A stretch of DNA of 43,547 bases from an uncultured Ectothiorhodospiraceae bacterium. Lineage in GTDB: Bacteria > Pseudomonadota > Gammaproteobacteria > JAABTG01. This document shows positions 10,910-39,067 of the stretch, piece after piece. Where the stretch lies: NCBI GenBank assembly GCA_937867305.1, contig CALMKJ010000136.1:1-43547 (forward strand), in the 5' to 3' direction. The notes below the pieces were generated by a model that worked only from the letters and a program-made list of their open reading frames with translations, had not been told where the DNA came from and did not search any database. How positions within the stretch are numbered: the first letter of the stretch is position 1; each line of letters begins with the position of its first letter. A program made the position numbers and the translations under genes.

Positions 10910-13900
10910 ATGGCTGATCTCCGCCAACGCATCGAGGCGATCGCCCAACGCCGGATCCTTCTGCTGGACGGTGCGATGGGCACCATGATCCAGCGCTACC
11001 GGCTCAGCGAGGCGGACTTCCGGGGCTCACGCTTCGCCGACCATCCCACGGACCTGAAGGGCAACAACGACCTGCTCTGCCTGACCCGGCCCGAGGTGAT
11101 TCGGGAGATCCACTCGGCCTACCTGGATGCCGGGGCGGACATCCTCGAGACCAACACCTTCAACGCAACGTCCATCTCGCAGGCGGACTACGGCCTGGAG
11201 TCGGTCGTCTACGAGCTGAACGCCGCCGGTGCCCGCCTGGCCCGCGAGGCCGCCGATGCGGCGACCGCCCGGGACCCCCGGAAGCCTCACTTCGTGGCGG
11301 GAGTGCTCGGCCCCACCAACCGCACCGCGTCCATCTCGCCGGACGTCAACAACCCCGGGTTCCGCAACGTCACCTTCGACGACCTGGCCGCAGCCTATCG
11401 CGAGTCCGTGCGTGGTCTCCTCGACGGGGGGGCGGACCTGCTGCTCATCGAGACGGTCTTCGACACGCTCAACGCGAAGGCCGCGGCGTTCGCGGTGGCC
11501 GAGGTCCTGGAGGAGCGCGGGCTCGACGTGCCGCTCATGATCTCCGGCACGATCACCGACGCGAGCGGCCGCACCCTCTCGGGGCAGACGGTCGAGGCGT
11601 TCTGGAACTCCCTCGCGCACACGCGGCCCTTCACCATCGGGCTGAACTGCGCCCTCGGGGCGCGCGAGCTCCGGGCTCACGTGGAGGAGCTCTCCCGGGT
11701 TGCCGACATGCGTGTCTCCGCGCACCCGAACGCGGGTCTGCCGAACGCCTTCGGCGAATACGACGACACCCCGGAGGGGATGGCGCGTGAGATCGGGGAC
11801 TGGGCCCGGGAAGGGTTCCTGAACGTGGTCGGCGGCTGCTGCGGAACCACGCCCGAGCACATCGCCGCGATCGCCCGGGCCGTGGCGCCCTATCCGCCGC
11901 GCCCGATGCCGCAGGTGCCGAAGCGGTGCCGGCTTGCGGGCCTCGAGGCGCTCAACGTCGGTCCGGAGTCGCTCTTCGTCAACGTCGGCGAGCGCACCAA
12001 CGTGACCGGCTCGGCGGCCTTCAAGCGCCTGGTGCTCGCCGGGGACTTCGAGGGGGCGGTGGACGTGGCGCGCCAGCAGGTGGAGAACGGCGCCCAGGTC
12101 ATCGACGTGAACATGGACGAGGGGATGCTGGACGGCCGCGAGGCGATGGTCCGGTTTCTCCACCAGATCGCGTCCGAGCCGGCGATTGCCCGCGTCCCGG
12201 TGATGATCGACTCCTCCCGCTGGTCGGTGCTGGAGGCAGGGCTGAAGTGTCTCCAGGGCAAGGGGATCGTCAACTCCATCAGCCTGAAGGAGGGCGAGGA
12301 GCCCTTCGTGCGGCAGGCGCGTCTCGCCCGCCGGTATGGTGCGGCGGTGGTGGTCATGGCCTTTGACGAGGCGGGCCAGGCCGACACCCTGGAGCGCAAG
12401 GTCGCCATCTGCACCCGGGCCTACCGCATCCTCACGGAGCAGGTGGGCTTCCCGCCCGAAGACATCGTCTTCGACCCGAACATCTTCGCGGTCGCCACGG
12501 GGATCGAGGAGCACAACGGCTACGGGGTCGCCTTCATCGAGGCGACGCGCCGGATCAAGGCGACCCTGCCCCACGCCCTGGTCTCCGGGGGCGTCTCGAA
12601 CGTCTCCTTCGCCTTCCGGGGCAACGACGCGGTGCGCGAGGCCATCCACGCGGTGTTCCTCTACCACGCCGTCCAGGCCGGCATGGACATGGGGATCGTC
12701 AACGCCGGCCAGCTGGCGGTGTACGCGGAGCTCCCGGAGGAGCTGCGCGAGCGTGTGGAGGACGTGGTGCTGAACCGGCGCGTCGACGCCACGGAGCGCC
12801 TGCTCGAGGTGGCCGGGCGGTACCGGGGAGAGGGCGGGGGCGCCACCCGGGAGGTCGACCTCGGCTGGCGGGTCTGGCCCGTGGAGAAGCGCATCGAGCA
12901 CGCCCTCGTGCAGGGCATCGACCAGTGGGTGGTCGAGGACGCCGAGGAGGCGCGCCAGAGCCTGCCGAGCCCGCTGGCCGTCATCGAGGGGCCGCTCATG
13001 AGCGGCATGAGCACGGTGGGCGACCTGTTCGGCGCGGGGAAGATGTTCCTGCCCCAGGTGGTGAAGAGCGCCCGGGTGATGAAGAAGGCGGTGGCCCATC
13101 TGGTGCCCTTCATCGAGGCAGAGCAATCCCAGGGGGCCCGCGCCGCCGGCCGGATCCTGATGGCGACGGTCAAGGGGGACGTCCACGACATCGGCAAGAA
13201 CATCGTGGGCGTCGTCCTGCAGTGCAACAACTTCGAGGTGATCGACCTCGGCGTGATGGTGCCGGCGCAGGTCATTCTCGACGCCGCCCGCACGCGTGGG
13301 GCTGACCTCATCGGCCTGTCGGGCCTCATCACCCCCTCGCTGGACGAGATGGTCCACGTGGCGCGCGAGATGCAGCGCCAGGGCTTCACGGTACCGCTCC
13401 TGATCGGCGGGGCGACGACCTCGGCGATGCACACCGCCGTGAAGATCGACCCCCAGTACGCCGGTCCCGTGGTCTACGTGAAGGACGCCTCCCGGGCGGT
13501 CGGTGTCGCCCAGAGCCTGTTGAGCCCGGAGCAGCGGGGCGCCTACGTGGACCGGGTGAAGTCCGACTACGCGGCCAAGCGCGACCAGCACGCCGCGCGC
13601 AGGCAGCAGGCCAGCGGACTGCCGATCGGGGCCGCCCGGGCCAACCGGACGCGCATCGAGTGGGCGGGCTACGTGCCGCCCGCGCCCCGCGAGCCGGGGG
13701 TGCGGGCCTTCGTGCGCTACCCGCTCGCCGAGCTGGTGCCCTACATCGACTGGACGCCGTTCTTCAAGGCCTGGGAGCTGCTCGGGAGCTTCCCGGCGAT
13801 CCTCGAGGACCCCGTGGTGGGTGGGGAGGCGCGTACCCTCTACGCCGATGCCCGGGAGATGCTGGAGCGGATCGTCGCCGAGGGCTGGATCGAGGCACGC

Positions 13901-14599
13901 GCCGTGGTGGGGTTCTTCCCGGCCAACGCCGTCGGCGATGATGTCGAGGTCTACAGGGACGAGAGCCGTGCGGGCGTGCTCCTCACCCTGCACCACCTGC
14001 GTCAGCAGACCGTCCGTCCCGACGGCAAGCCCAACCAGTGTCTGGCCGACTTCGTCGCACCGAAGGAGACGGGGCTCGCGGACTGGATCGGGGCCTTCGC
14101 GGTGACGGCGGGGCACGGCATCGAGGGCAAGCTCGCGGAGCTCGAGGCGGCGCACGACGACTACCGGGCCATCCTGTTGAAGGCGCTCGCCGACCGTCTG
14201 GCGGAGGCCTTCGCCGAGCGCCTGCACGAGCGGGTCCGCCGGGAGCTCTGGGGGTACGCGCCCGCCGAGCGCCTGGACAGCGATGCCCTGGTCCGCGAGG
14301 AGTACCAGGGCATCCGGCCCGCGCCGGGCTATCCGGCGTGCCCGGACCACACCGAGAAGGACCTCCTGTGGGAGCTCCTCGACGTGGAGGCGGTCACGGG
14401 GATCCGGCTGACGGAGACGAAGGCGATGATGCCCGCGGCCTCGGTGAGCGGGTTCTATTTCTCCCACCCCCAGGCCCGCTACTTCGCCGTGGGTCGAGTC
14501 GAGCGCGACCAGGTCGAGGACTACGCTCGCCGCAAGGGCATGACGGTGTCTGCAGTGGAGCGCTGGCTCGCCCCCAACCTCGCCTATGATCCAACATAA
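10910..14599 (+). CDS. metH: Cobalamin-dependent methionine synthase
   Basis: MetH transfers the methyl group of 5-methyl-THF to homocysteine via methylcobalamin in the cytoplasm. At 1229 residues it is full length and in register with the E. coli enzyme. The zinc ligands are C247 (GLNCALG) and C310/C311 ([10 protein letters not shown]). The pterin domain carries [11 protein letters not shown] near 360. The B12 domain has the DxHxxG motif with His759 as lower axial ligand (GDVHDIGKN). The C-terminal reactivation domain ends with the SAM-binding region ([15 protein letters not shown]). It depends on B12, in keeping with the cobalamin uptake and adenosylation genes 5-10 kb downstream. Confidence 0.98.
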
Positions 14600-18998: not shown

Positions 18999-19028
18999 TT
19001 GACAGCCTCGCGGGCACCGGGCTAGCGT
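18999..19028 (+). promoter_or_regulatory. Promoter of the B12 riboswitch operon
   Basis: A perfect TTGACA -35 (18999-19004) is followed after 18 bp by a weak TAGCGT -10 (19023-19028). The predicted start near 19035 is the first base of the riboswitch P1 stem, which supports both calls. Confidence 0.55.
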
Positions 19029-19035
19029 GGCGCCT

Positions 19036-19231
19036 GCCAGGTGCCCGACGGCCGTCCAGGTCCGCCGGGTGAAACGGGAAACCGGTGCGTGCCCGCCCAT
19101 CGAGCGGCGCAAGGCCGGTGCTGCCCCCGCAACGGTAAGTGAGTCGAGGCGGATCCGGACGCCACTGCGCGCAGGCGTGGGAAGGCGGTCCGCCGGCGAG
19201 AGCCGCTCACGAGCCCGGAGACCGGCCTGGC
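19036..19231 (+). promoter_or_regulatory. Cobalamin (B12) riboswitch
   Basis: All the conserved blocks of a cobalamin riboswitch are present in order. P1 closes GCCAGG (19036-19041) with CCTGGC (19226-19231). Then come GGGAA-ACC-GGTG (19076-19087), the B12 box GCTGCCCCCGCAAC with GGTAAG (19120-19139), GCCACTG (19161-19167), GGGAAGGC (19179-19186) and GAGCCCGGAGACCGG (19211-19225). Bound adenosylcobalamin normally switches expression off. No terminator with a T-run follows, so control is probably translational, through the ribosome site GGAGGG just before the GTG at 19277. Confidence 0.93.
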
Positions 19232-19276
19232 GTGGTCCAGTCGTATGTCGCGGTGGGCGACGGCGCGGAGGGTCTC

Positions 19277-20953
19277 GTGGGGTCGTCAGCGAATGTCCGC
19301 AAGTTCTTGACGTGGGCCGTCCTCGCGGTGGCCAGTGCCGGCGGCGCCGGCAAGCAGGCCTCGCTGTACCTCAGGGGAACCAGCGCCAAGGACGTTCTGG
19401 TTCTGGTCGACGGGGTGCGCGCGGGGTCGGCCACCGGCGGTGGTTTCGCCTGGGAGTTCCTGCCCGTTGCCGAGCTCGACCGGGTCGAGATCGTGAGGGG
19501 GCCCCGCTCGAGTCTCTACGGACCGGATGCGGTCGGGGGCGTCGTCCAGGTCTTCACCCGGCGGGCGGAGGAGGAGGGCACGGTCCTCTCGGCGCGGGCG
19601 GGCGCGGGCAACCGCGGGACCCTCCTGGGGCAGGCCGGACTCTCGGCGAGTGACGGAGGGTCCGAGGTGACGGTCCACGCCAGCGGCTTCGAAACCACAG
19701 GGGCCAACGCCCGCCGGCCTGCCCTCGTCTTCGGGACCCTGCTCGACGAGCCGGACCGGGACGGATACCGGAACCACGCCGTGTCGGGGCGGGTCGCCCA
19801 CCGTTTCGGGCCCGCGGCGGCGGCCTCGCTCCAGGTGCTCCACGCCGAGGGCACCACCGAGTACGACGGCTTCCCCTTCGACACCAACGAGACCGATTTC
19901 ACGCAAGAGGCCCTCGGCGCCAGGCTGGACCTGCGGCCGCTCGAGGGCTGGCAATCCTCGCTCGCAGTGGGGCGAAGCCTGGACCGCCGGCGTGAGCACC
20001 GGGACGGTGGCGCGGTCCCGCCGTCCCGGTTCGACACCGAGTCGCGGACCTTCTCCTGGCAGAACGATGTCCCGGTAGGCCCGGGGCTCCTGACCATCGG
20101 CGCCGACCGCCTGGAGCAGCGCGTCGACAGCTCGATCGACTACGACCGGCGATCGCGCACGGTCAATGGGGTGTTCGTCGAGCTGCAGGCCCGGGCCGGG
20201 GCACACCGGGCCGTGCTCGGGGGACGTGTCGACGACAACAGCCAGTTCGGCACGGCGAAGACGGGTAACCTCGCGTGGGGGTACGAGTTCGTGCCCGGCT
20301 GGGAGGTCGTCGCGTCCTGGGGTACGGCATTTCGCGCCCCCACGTTCAACGAGCTCTACTATCCCGGTTTCGGCAATCCCGACCTGCGCCCGGAGCGATC
20401 GCACAGCGTGGAGTTGAGCGTCGCCGGCCGCGAGGGGGCGTGGATCCCGCGGGTCTCGGTCTTCCGTACCCGGATCCACAACCTGGTCGCGTTCCCGGCG
20501 CCGGACTACGTCGGCCAGAACGTGGACCGGGCGGAGATCGACGGGCTCGAGCTGGAGCTCTCGGGCAGCCTCGGGACCTGGGAGCCCCGGGTTGCGCTCA
20601 CCTGGCTCGACCCGCGGGACCGGGCCACCGGGAACCACCTCCCGCGCCGCCCGCGAGAGGCGGCGGTCTTCGAGCTGGACCGCCCCTGGGGTCGCGCGCG
20701 AGCGGGCCTGACCTGGGTGGTGGAGGGGGCACGGTACGACGACCCGGCGAACCGGGAGCGTCTGGGCGGCTTCGGCGTGCTCGACCTGCGGGGCCGCTAC
20801 CGCATCGGTGGGGGCTGGACCCTCGAGGCGCGCGCCGGGAACGTCCTCGACCACGACTACGAGACCGTCGCAGGCTATCCCGAGTCGGGCCGCAGCCTGT
20901 TCTTCTCCATCGGCTACACGATGGGCGGCGCTGACACGACCAGCGGGTCGTGA
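19277..20953 (+). CDS. btuB: BtuB-like TonB-dependent receptor, N-terminal plug truncated
   Basis: This is an outer-membrane cobalamin receptor homologue of 558 residues. GTG 19277 is chosen because GGAGGG lies 4 nt upstream; a signal peptide follows (VRKFLTWAVLAVASAGG). The sequence then passes directly to GKQASLYLRGT, which in BtuB lies about 60 residues into the mature plug. The TonB box and the start of the plug are missing. The rest is intact: DVLVLVDGV, VEIVRGPRSSLYG, GGVVQVFTRR, then a complete-looking barrel (FRAPTFNELYYPGFGNP, NLRPERS-like DLRPERS, terminal strand). The junction is in a GGCGGCGCCGGC repeat. Without a TonB box active transport is doubtful. Downstream genes also concern B12. 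Confidence 0.85.
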   Translation: MGSSANVRKFLTWAVLAVASAGGAGKQASLYLRGTSAKDVLVLVDGVRAGSATGGGFAWEFLPVAELDRVEIVRGPRSSLYGPDAVGGVVQVFTRRAEEEGTVLSARAGAGNRGTLLGQAGLSASDGGSEVTVHASGFETTGANARRPALVFGTLLDEPDRDGYRNHAVSGRVAHRFGPAAAASLQVLHAEGTTEYDGFPFDTNETDFTQEALGARLDLRPLEGWQSSLAVGRSLDRRREHRDGGAVPPSRFDTESRTFSWQNDVPVGPGLLTIGADRLEQRVDSSIDYDRRSRTVNGVFVELQARAGAHRAVLGGRVDDNSQFGTAKTGNLAWGYEFVPGWEVVASWGTAFRAPTFNELYYPGFGNPDLRPERSHSVELSVAGREGAWIPRVSVFRTRIHNLVAFPAPDYVGQNVDRAEIDGLELELSGSLGTWEPRVALTWLDPRDRATGNHLPRRPREAAVFELDRPWGRARAGLTWVVEGARYDDPANRERLGGFGVLDLRGRYRIGGGWTLEARAGNVLDHDYETVAGYPESGRSLFFSIGYTMGGADTTSGS

Positions 20954-21015: not shown

Positions 21016-21570
21016 ATGGGCCAGCGTCTCACCCGCATCTACACGCGCACCGGCGACGACGGTACCACCGGGCTCGGTGACGGAAGCCGGGTCGCCAAGG
21101 ACGCCTTGCGGGTCGAGGTGATGGGCGAGGTGGACGAGCTCAACAGCCACATCGGCGCCGTGCTGGCGCATCCCGTGCCGGTGGCGGTCCGGGAGCCCCT
21201 GCTGGCGATTCAGCACGACCTGTTCGACGTGGGCGGGGAGCTCGCGGTGCCCGGCCGGCAGGTGATGGGCGCGGCGCAGGTACGGAGGCTCGAGGTGGCG
21301 CTGGACGCCCTCAACGCCGACCTGCCCACGCTGCGCGAGTTCGTCCTGCCGGGCGGGAGCCCCGAGGCCGCCACGTGCCACGTGGCGCGCGCCGTCTGCC
21401 GGCGTGCGGAGCGTCGCCTGGTGACCCTGGGGCGCACGGAGTTCGTGAACCCGTACACCCGGCAGTACCTGAACCGGCTTTCGGACCTCCTGTTCGTGCT
21501 CGCCCGGGTGTTGACCCGGAACGCGGGCAGCGGCGAGGTCCTCTGGCAGCCCCGGGGCGAGGAGGATTGA
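21016..21570 (+). CDS. Cob(I)alamin adenosyltransferase, PduO type
   Basis: The enzyme adenosylates cob(I)alamin with ATP to make coenzyme B12. The 184-residue protein has the N-terminal ATP-binding TRTGDDGTTGL, the central VDELNSHIG, and the C-terminal YLNRLSDLLFVLAR followed by R-N-x-G-S-G-E-V-L-W, the PduO signature. ATG 21016 is used since the family motif begins within ten residues. It is the second gene under the cobalamin riboswitch. Its product would supply the riboswitch ligand. Confidence 0.95.
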   Translation: MGQRLTRIYTRTGDDGTTGLGDGSRVAKDALRVEVMGEVDELNSHIGAVLAHPVPVAVREPLLAIQHDLFDVGGELAVPGRQVMGAAQVRRLEVALDALNADLPTLREFVLPGGSPEAATCHVARAVCRRAERRLVTLGRTEFVNPYTRQYLNRLSDLLFVLARVLTRNAGSGEVLWQPRGEED

Positions 21571-21591
21571 GTGAGCGTTGGGAGGTCGGAG

Positions 21592-22140
21592 ATGAGGCGT
21601 GTGCTGACGCAGGTGCTGGCGCTGGTGGCTGTGGCGGCGCTGACCCGCCTGGTGCCCCACCCCCCGAACTTCGTCCCGCTGGGCGCCATGGCGCTGCTCT
21701 CGGGTGCGCTGCTCGGCGGGCGGGGCCTCGCTTATGCCTTGCCCCTGGGCGCGATGTTCCTGGGCGACCTGGTGCTCGGCCTGCACGCGCACGTCCCCGC
21801 GGTCTACGGGGCGATGGGCGCGGTGGTCTGGGTGGGCACCCGCCTCGGCGGGCGCCGGGGCCTGGTCCCGGTGAGCGCGGCGTCGCTGGCAGGCTCCACC
21901 CTGTTCTTCCTGGTGACCAATCTTTCGGTGTGGGCCCTCGACGGCCTCTATCCGCCCACCCTGGAGGGGTTGGCGGTGTGCTACGTGGCTGCCCTGCCGT
22001 TCTTCGCGAACAGCCTGGCGGCGGACCTGCTGTACGTCTGGGTGGTCGTGGGCGCCCTGCGCTGGGCCCGGGCCAGACCCGAGCGGGAGCTCGCAGCGTT
22101 CCAGGGTCCGGGTGCCGATCCGGTCAGGGCCGCTTCCTGA
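21592..22140 (+). CDS. DUF6580-family membrane protein, putative transporter component
   Basis: This is a 182-residue integral membrane protein with about five hydrophobic segments. It has a family-like start (LTRLVPHPPNFVPLGAMALLSGALLG) and paired membrane spans with small residues, resembling the substrate-binding (S) components of ECF vitamin transporters. ATG 21592 has GGAGG six bases upstream; GTG 21571 is a possible alternative. It follows the adenosyltransferase closely and is the third gene after the cobalamin riboswitch, suggesting a part in corrinoid uptake. That role is inferred from context. Its 3' end overlaps the convergent protease gene by 17 nt. Confidence 0.75.
   Translation: MRRVLTQVLALVAVAALTRLVPHPPNFVPLGAMALLSGALLGGRGLAYALPLGAMFLGDLVLGLHAHVPAVYGAMGAVVWVGTRLGGRRGLVPVSAASLAGSTLFFLVTNLSVWALDGLYPPTLEGLAVCYVAALPFFANSLAADLLYVWVVVGALRWARARPERELAAFQGPGADPVRAAS

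Positions 22141-36086: not shown

Positions 36087-39067
<2,981 letters not shown>

Follow-up and report, generated by a model that had tools for sequence, protein, structure and literature searches.

Among the systems closest to the locus described here, BtuB has been studied under force: in the model of Hickman et al. (2017; PMC5413942), TonB takes hold of the Ton box and unfolds a stretch of ~50 plug residues (23-73), and removal of these residues from the BtuB structure leaves a channel of 12.5 x 30.2 Å, in which the strong subdomain (residues 73-136) stays in place. FecA was inactivated by deletion of its Ton box (PMC11658791), and FhuA delta1-159, from which the whole cork was removed, is a passive channel (PMC3292033). 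Here we describe a btuB gene, btuB1, from which the energy-coupling part was lost by an in-frame deletion, with no stop codon and no frameshift.

The truncated btuB1 and its locus

The stretch of DNA that was analysed (the window, 43,547 nucleotides from an uncultured Ectothiorhodospiraceae bacterium) carries btuB1 behind a cobalamin riboswitch aptamer (Table 1), and 32 bases separate the end of this element from the start codon. At the corresponding locus of a genome of the same genus (G001) the element scores 94.7 bits. From this arrangement, btuB1 is predicted to be under B12 control via the riboswitch. The frame is open from the GTG at 19277 to the stop codon at 20951-20953, and the encoded start of the product reads (M)GSSANVRKFLTWAVLAVASAGGAGKQASLYLRGT, in which a signal-peptide-like (M)GSSANVRKFLTWAVLAVASA is followed directly by GGAGKQASLYLRGT. 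Judged from the residues at this position, the leader is probably cleaved between ASA and GG.

In an alignment to the solved structure of E. coli BtuB (1nqf), of which the mature chain comprises 594 residues, the btuB1 protein matched residues 54-593. The Ton box near the mature N-terminus is missing, and with the first ~53 mature residues gone the product has no complete N-terminal plug domain. The TonB-dependent receptor beta-barrel is present (PF00593, 165.1 bits). The plug profile PF07715 was matched with 65.5 bits over profile positions 25-107, the first part of this match falling on the signal peptide, compared with 86 bits over positions 7-107 in the intact G001 orthologue. TIGR01779 (TonB-B12) was the top NCBIfam match of the product at 463.8 bits, which is under the cut-off of 599.7 bits, as is the score of the intact G001 orthologue (515.1 bits). 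Taken together, these results bear out the initial annotation in its description of an intact riboswitch, a GTG start with a signal-peptide-like N-terminus, and a BtuB that has kept its reading frame and barrel without its Ton box and early plug.

Downstream of btuB1 lie a pduO-type cob(I)alamin adenosyltransferase gene, the start codon of which was taken as the ATG inside the listed open reading frame, and a gene for a DUF6580 membrane protein as the third member of an apparent B12 cluster. Since no FecCD permease (BtuC) was found above the cut-off in the genome, the DUF6580 gene, directly after btuB1 and pduO, is a candidate for an inner-membrane B12 transporter of an uncharacterised family. 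DUF6580 gave no significant sequence match among solved structures, so an identification as BtuM is unsupported, and no paper naming the family was found. The gene for the B12-dependent methionine synthase, metH, is situated at 10910-14599, ~4.7 kb upstream of btuB1; in the draft genome of G001, metH is on contig C2 and btuB on contig C20.

Table 1. Features of the btuB1 locus and position of the second btuB gene. Coordinates refer to the window unless a contig is given; L033 denotes the corresponding locus in G001.
Feature	Position	Strand	Evidence
Cobalamin riboswitch aptamer RF00174, upstream of btuB1	19022..19244	+	cmscan 90.5 bits, E 2.9e-21, full model 1-189
btuB1, N-terminal deletion, GTG start, 558 aa	19277..20953	+	open reading frame and Pfam/NCBIfam profiles
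Signal-peptide-like leader MGSSANVRKFLTWAVLAVASA	19277..19339	+	read from sequence
Deletion junction, GCGG microhomology	19325..19328	+	BLASTN break at window 19328 / L033 780, resumption at L033 972-979
GGCGGCGCCGGC motif, ancestral coding sequence	19340..19351	+	identical in G001, L033 990-1001
pduO-type cob(I)alamin adenosyltransferase, downstream of btuB1	21016..21570	+	PF01923 200.7 bits, TIGR00636 200.1 bits
DUF6580 membrane protein, third gene of apparent B12 cluster	21571..22140	+	PF20221 157.4 bits
btuB2, full-length	C197:9796-11640	-	614 aa, TIGR01779 665.9 bits (cut-off 599.7)

The deletion compared with the congener and other relatives

Contig C20 of G001 harbors the same riboswitch-btuB-pduO locus, at an identity of about 91%, with synteny continuing to window position 38269 at a DNA identity of 90-93%. 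Its btuB is full length (618 aa), encodes the Ton box ELPELVVTETR and aligns to the solved E. coli BtuB from residue 7, inside the Ton box. An alignment of orthologues had been suggested as a check of the deletion, and against this intact allele at the same locus exactly 198 bp (66 codons, in frame) are missing from the window. The lost segment corresponds to L033 781-978, the window base after 19328 to L033 979, and both flanks are collinear with G001. Roughly the first 15 of the lost codons specify, in G001, the end of the signal peptide and the leader.

In G001, GCGG occurs at either end of this segment, within CTCGCGG and CTTGCGG. The initial annotation had proposed an origin between repeats and had placed the junction in the GC-rich repeat GGCGGCGCCGGC. 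A deletion between short repeats is upheld, but the repeat is GCGG, and GGCGGCGCCGGC, which starts 12 bases further on, was rejected as the junction because it is unchanged in the intact gene of the congener. The 198 bp were probably lost between the two GCGG direct repeats by slippage or by a microhomology-mediated deletion. Since an in-frame signal peptide was recreated, the product would be expected to be exported still.

All 24 other relatives of which the N-termini were read individually, a set including G001 and the second btuB of the window genome (btuB2, see below), showed a complete plug start and a preceding Ton-box-like sequence, weak in a few. The Ton box is ELVVTETR in G001, and the other relatives of this set have comparable sequences. 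A scan of genome contigs gave a single, distant relative, Lysobacter concretionis, at 40% identity. BtuB-like matches were detected in 184 of the 369 genomes of the class. Among the matches listed (at least ~150, counted by eye), late starts were confined to btuB1, at query residue 74, and G303:C215, at residue 69, which is cut by the contig start; all others listed begin by query residue 28. The missing N-terminus of btuB1 is not explained by ordinary divergence.

The remnant of btuB1 was compared with G001 (YN00), yielding a dN of 0.036, a dS of 0.38 and a dN/dS of 0.095. The dN/dS of neighbouring genes ranged from 0.024 to 0.20, with the histidine-kinase and GGDEF genes at 0.02-0.05 and DUF6580 at 0.20. 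With 11 outgroups, five derived changes in the shared region were assigned to the window branch and two to the G001 branch; this count was restricted to rows after residue 70 of the listed frame, because non-homologous sequence is compared in the earlier ones. No further lesions were found in the 529 remaining codons. The remnant thus appears to be free of decay since the deletion, and a recent deletion would look alike.

A second btuB and the demand for B12

The window genome also contains the second btuB that the initial annotation had proposed to look for, a full-length btuB2 on contig C197. It lies behind its own cobalamin riboswitch and encodes a signal peptide, a complete plug and the Ton box ELPPVVVTATR. 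btuB2 is ~43% identical to btuB1 and was not grouped with it in a tree in which support around btuB2 was weak. A counterpart was not found in G001, which has a single btuB, and both a gain in the window lineage and a loss in G001 are possible. C197 shares stretches of 93-94% identity with G001 contigs, for which reason it was assigned to the window lineage; plain contamination is therefore unsupported, though all of these stretches fall in the first 3.4 kb, outside the btuB2 part, and this short mosaic contig could be partly chimeric. A group II intron with a reverse transcriptase/maturase is located immediately downstream of btuB2 (L034, G000:C197, 7580-9379), in a mosaic region with partial matches only in G001.

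MetH is present in both the window genome and G001. Searches of the two genomes for the MetE C-terminal and CobS families gave no match, and neither genome yielded a FecCD permease above the cut-off. TonB-like (TonB_C) proteins are present in the window genome. As MetH was detected and MetE and CobS were not, B12 import should be important to the cell, and btuB2 would encode the intact receptor for it.

Interpretation and comparison with known systems

We consider it probable, though well short of certain, that the deletion is genuine and specific to this lineage, and that it uncoupled a redundant btuB1 from TonB, with B12 import covered by btuB2. Both the full-length btuB2 and the congener's intact gene at this locus favour such a reading. 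With the Ton box lost along with mature residues 1 to ~53-57, TonB should be unable to pull the product and energised B12 uptake would be lost, even if the protein could still form a barrel holding the C-terminal half of the plug. The loss would be tolerated because a complete, riboswitch-controlled btuB2 covers import. Given this complete second copy, btuB1 is best seen as a spare gene that was broken recently, and as such it would be a commonplace case of a gene decaying once it had become redundant. The absence of further lesions, the low dN/dS and the lack of a clear excess of derived changes speak against a redundant copy, although they would also be expected after a recent deletion; the short and mosaic nature of C197 speaks against it as well.

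That the deletion is instead an artefact or a minority variant, caused by a chimeric read, a low-coverage error or a mixed population mostly carrying the full-length gene, seems unlikely to us. The deletion is known from a single assembly, and this is a draft of 222 contigs with an estimated contamination of 4.1%, which leaves room for a rare explanation at the level of reads or of the population. Against this, the deletion has sharp ends, keeps the reading frame and lies between collinear flanks, and its junction is unique in the genome: 121 bp around it gave no other strong genome match, the longest perfect word among the matches listed being 16 bp. A repeat-driven assembly collapse was judged unlikely for this reason and because a repeat of 4 bp (7 bp with one mismatch) is far below any assembly k-mer. 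The deleted 198 bp were found on no separate contig and nowhere else in the window genome, whereas the control genome was matched at 100%, and a relocation of the segment as a separate plug gene was likewise not found.

The most interesting alternative, since the deletion takes much of the segment that TonB is thought to pull out, is a constitutively half-open BtuB, in which the C-terminal plug half sits in the barrel and an always open channel allows TonB-independent, passive diffusion of molecules roughly the size of B12. We regard it as quite unlikely. It would fit the loss of the Ton box together with over half of the weak subdomain (mature residues 1 to ~53-57), the intact frame, riboswitch, signal-peptide-like start and barrel, the undecayed remnant and the passive diffusion through cork-less FhuA delta1-159. 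Yet residues ~54-73 have been kept and could still obstruct the lumen, half a plug may fail to fold properly or be broken down, and an outer membrane with a lasting opening comes at a cost. Nor is there an evident need for such a channel, because a second, coupled BtuB exists. An AlphaFold2 model of the btuB1 protein, obtained from a two-row alignment, had a mean pLDDT of 54.5 (~30-35 in the plug remnant) and was too poor to judge the lumen. Stated in full, namely that btuB1 encodes a natural, riboswitch-controlled channel that has lost the Ton box together with most of the force-labile plug half and is constitutively open, TonB-independent and B12-sized, the proposal appears more doubtful still. 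If true, it would be a natural counterpart of the open state proposed from single-molecule work for TonB-pulled BtuB. A product that is made and open would amount to a natural experiment on TonB gating of BtuB, the weak plug half being removed by evolution and not by force, and would offer a direct test of the forced-remodelling model.

Another role for the truncated receptor, for example as a B12 binder or a surface receptor without transport, is very improbable: the barrel and remaining plug are conserved and still under a B12 riboswitch, but no partner gene or sequence innovation was seen, and a recent deletion explains the conservation equally well.

Compared with E. coli BtuB (PDB 1nqe/1nqf; TIGR01779), the btuB1 product aligns throughout the barrel and the C-terminal plug and differs in the lack of mature residues 1-53 including the Ton box. 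As for BtuB, a cobalamin riboswitch is found upstream of the gene, and in the genus of the window an adenosyltransferase gene follows downstream. btuB1 resembles btuB2 of the same genome in sequence and in its position behind a cobalamin riboswitch; unlike btuB1, btuB2 has its Ton box and complete plug, is absent from G001, and lies in a variable region beside a group II intron. With the engineered FhuA delta1-159 the btuB1 product shares a barrel without a functional N-terminal plug, but FhuA delta1-159 is missing the whole cork, whereas the deletion in btuB1 is natural and has spared roughly the C-terminal half of the plug.
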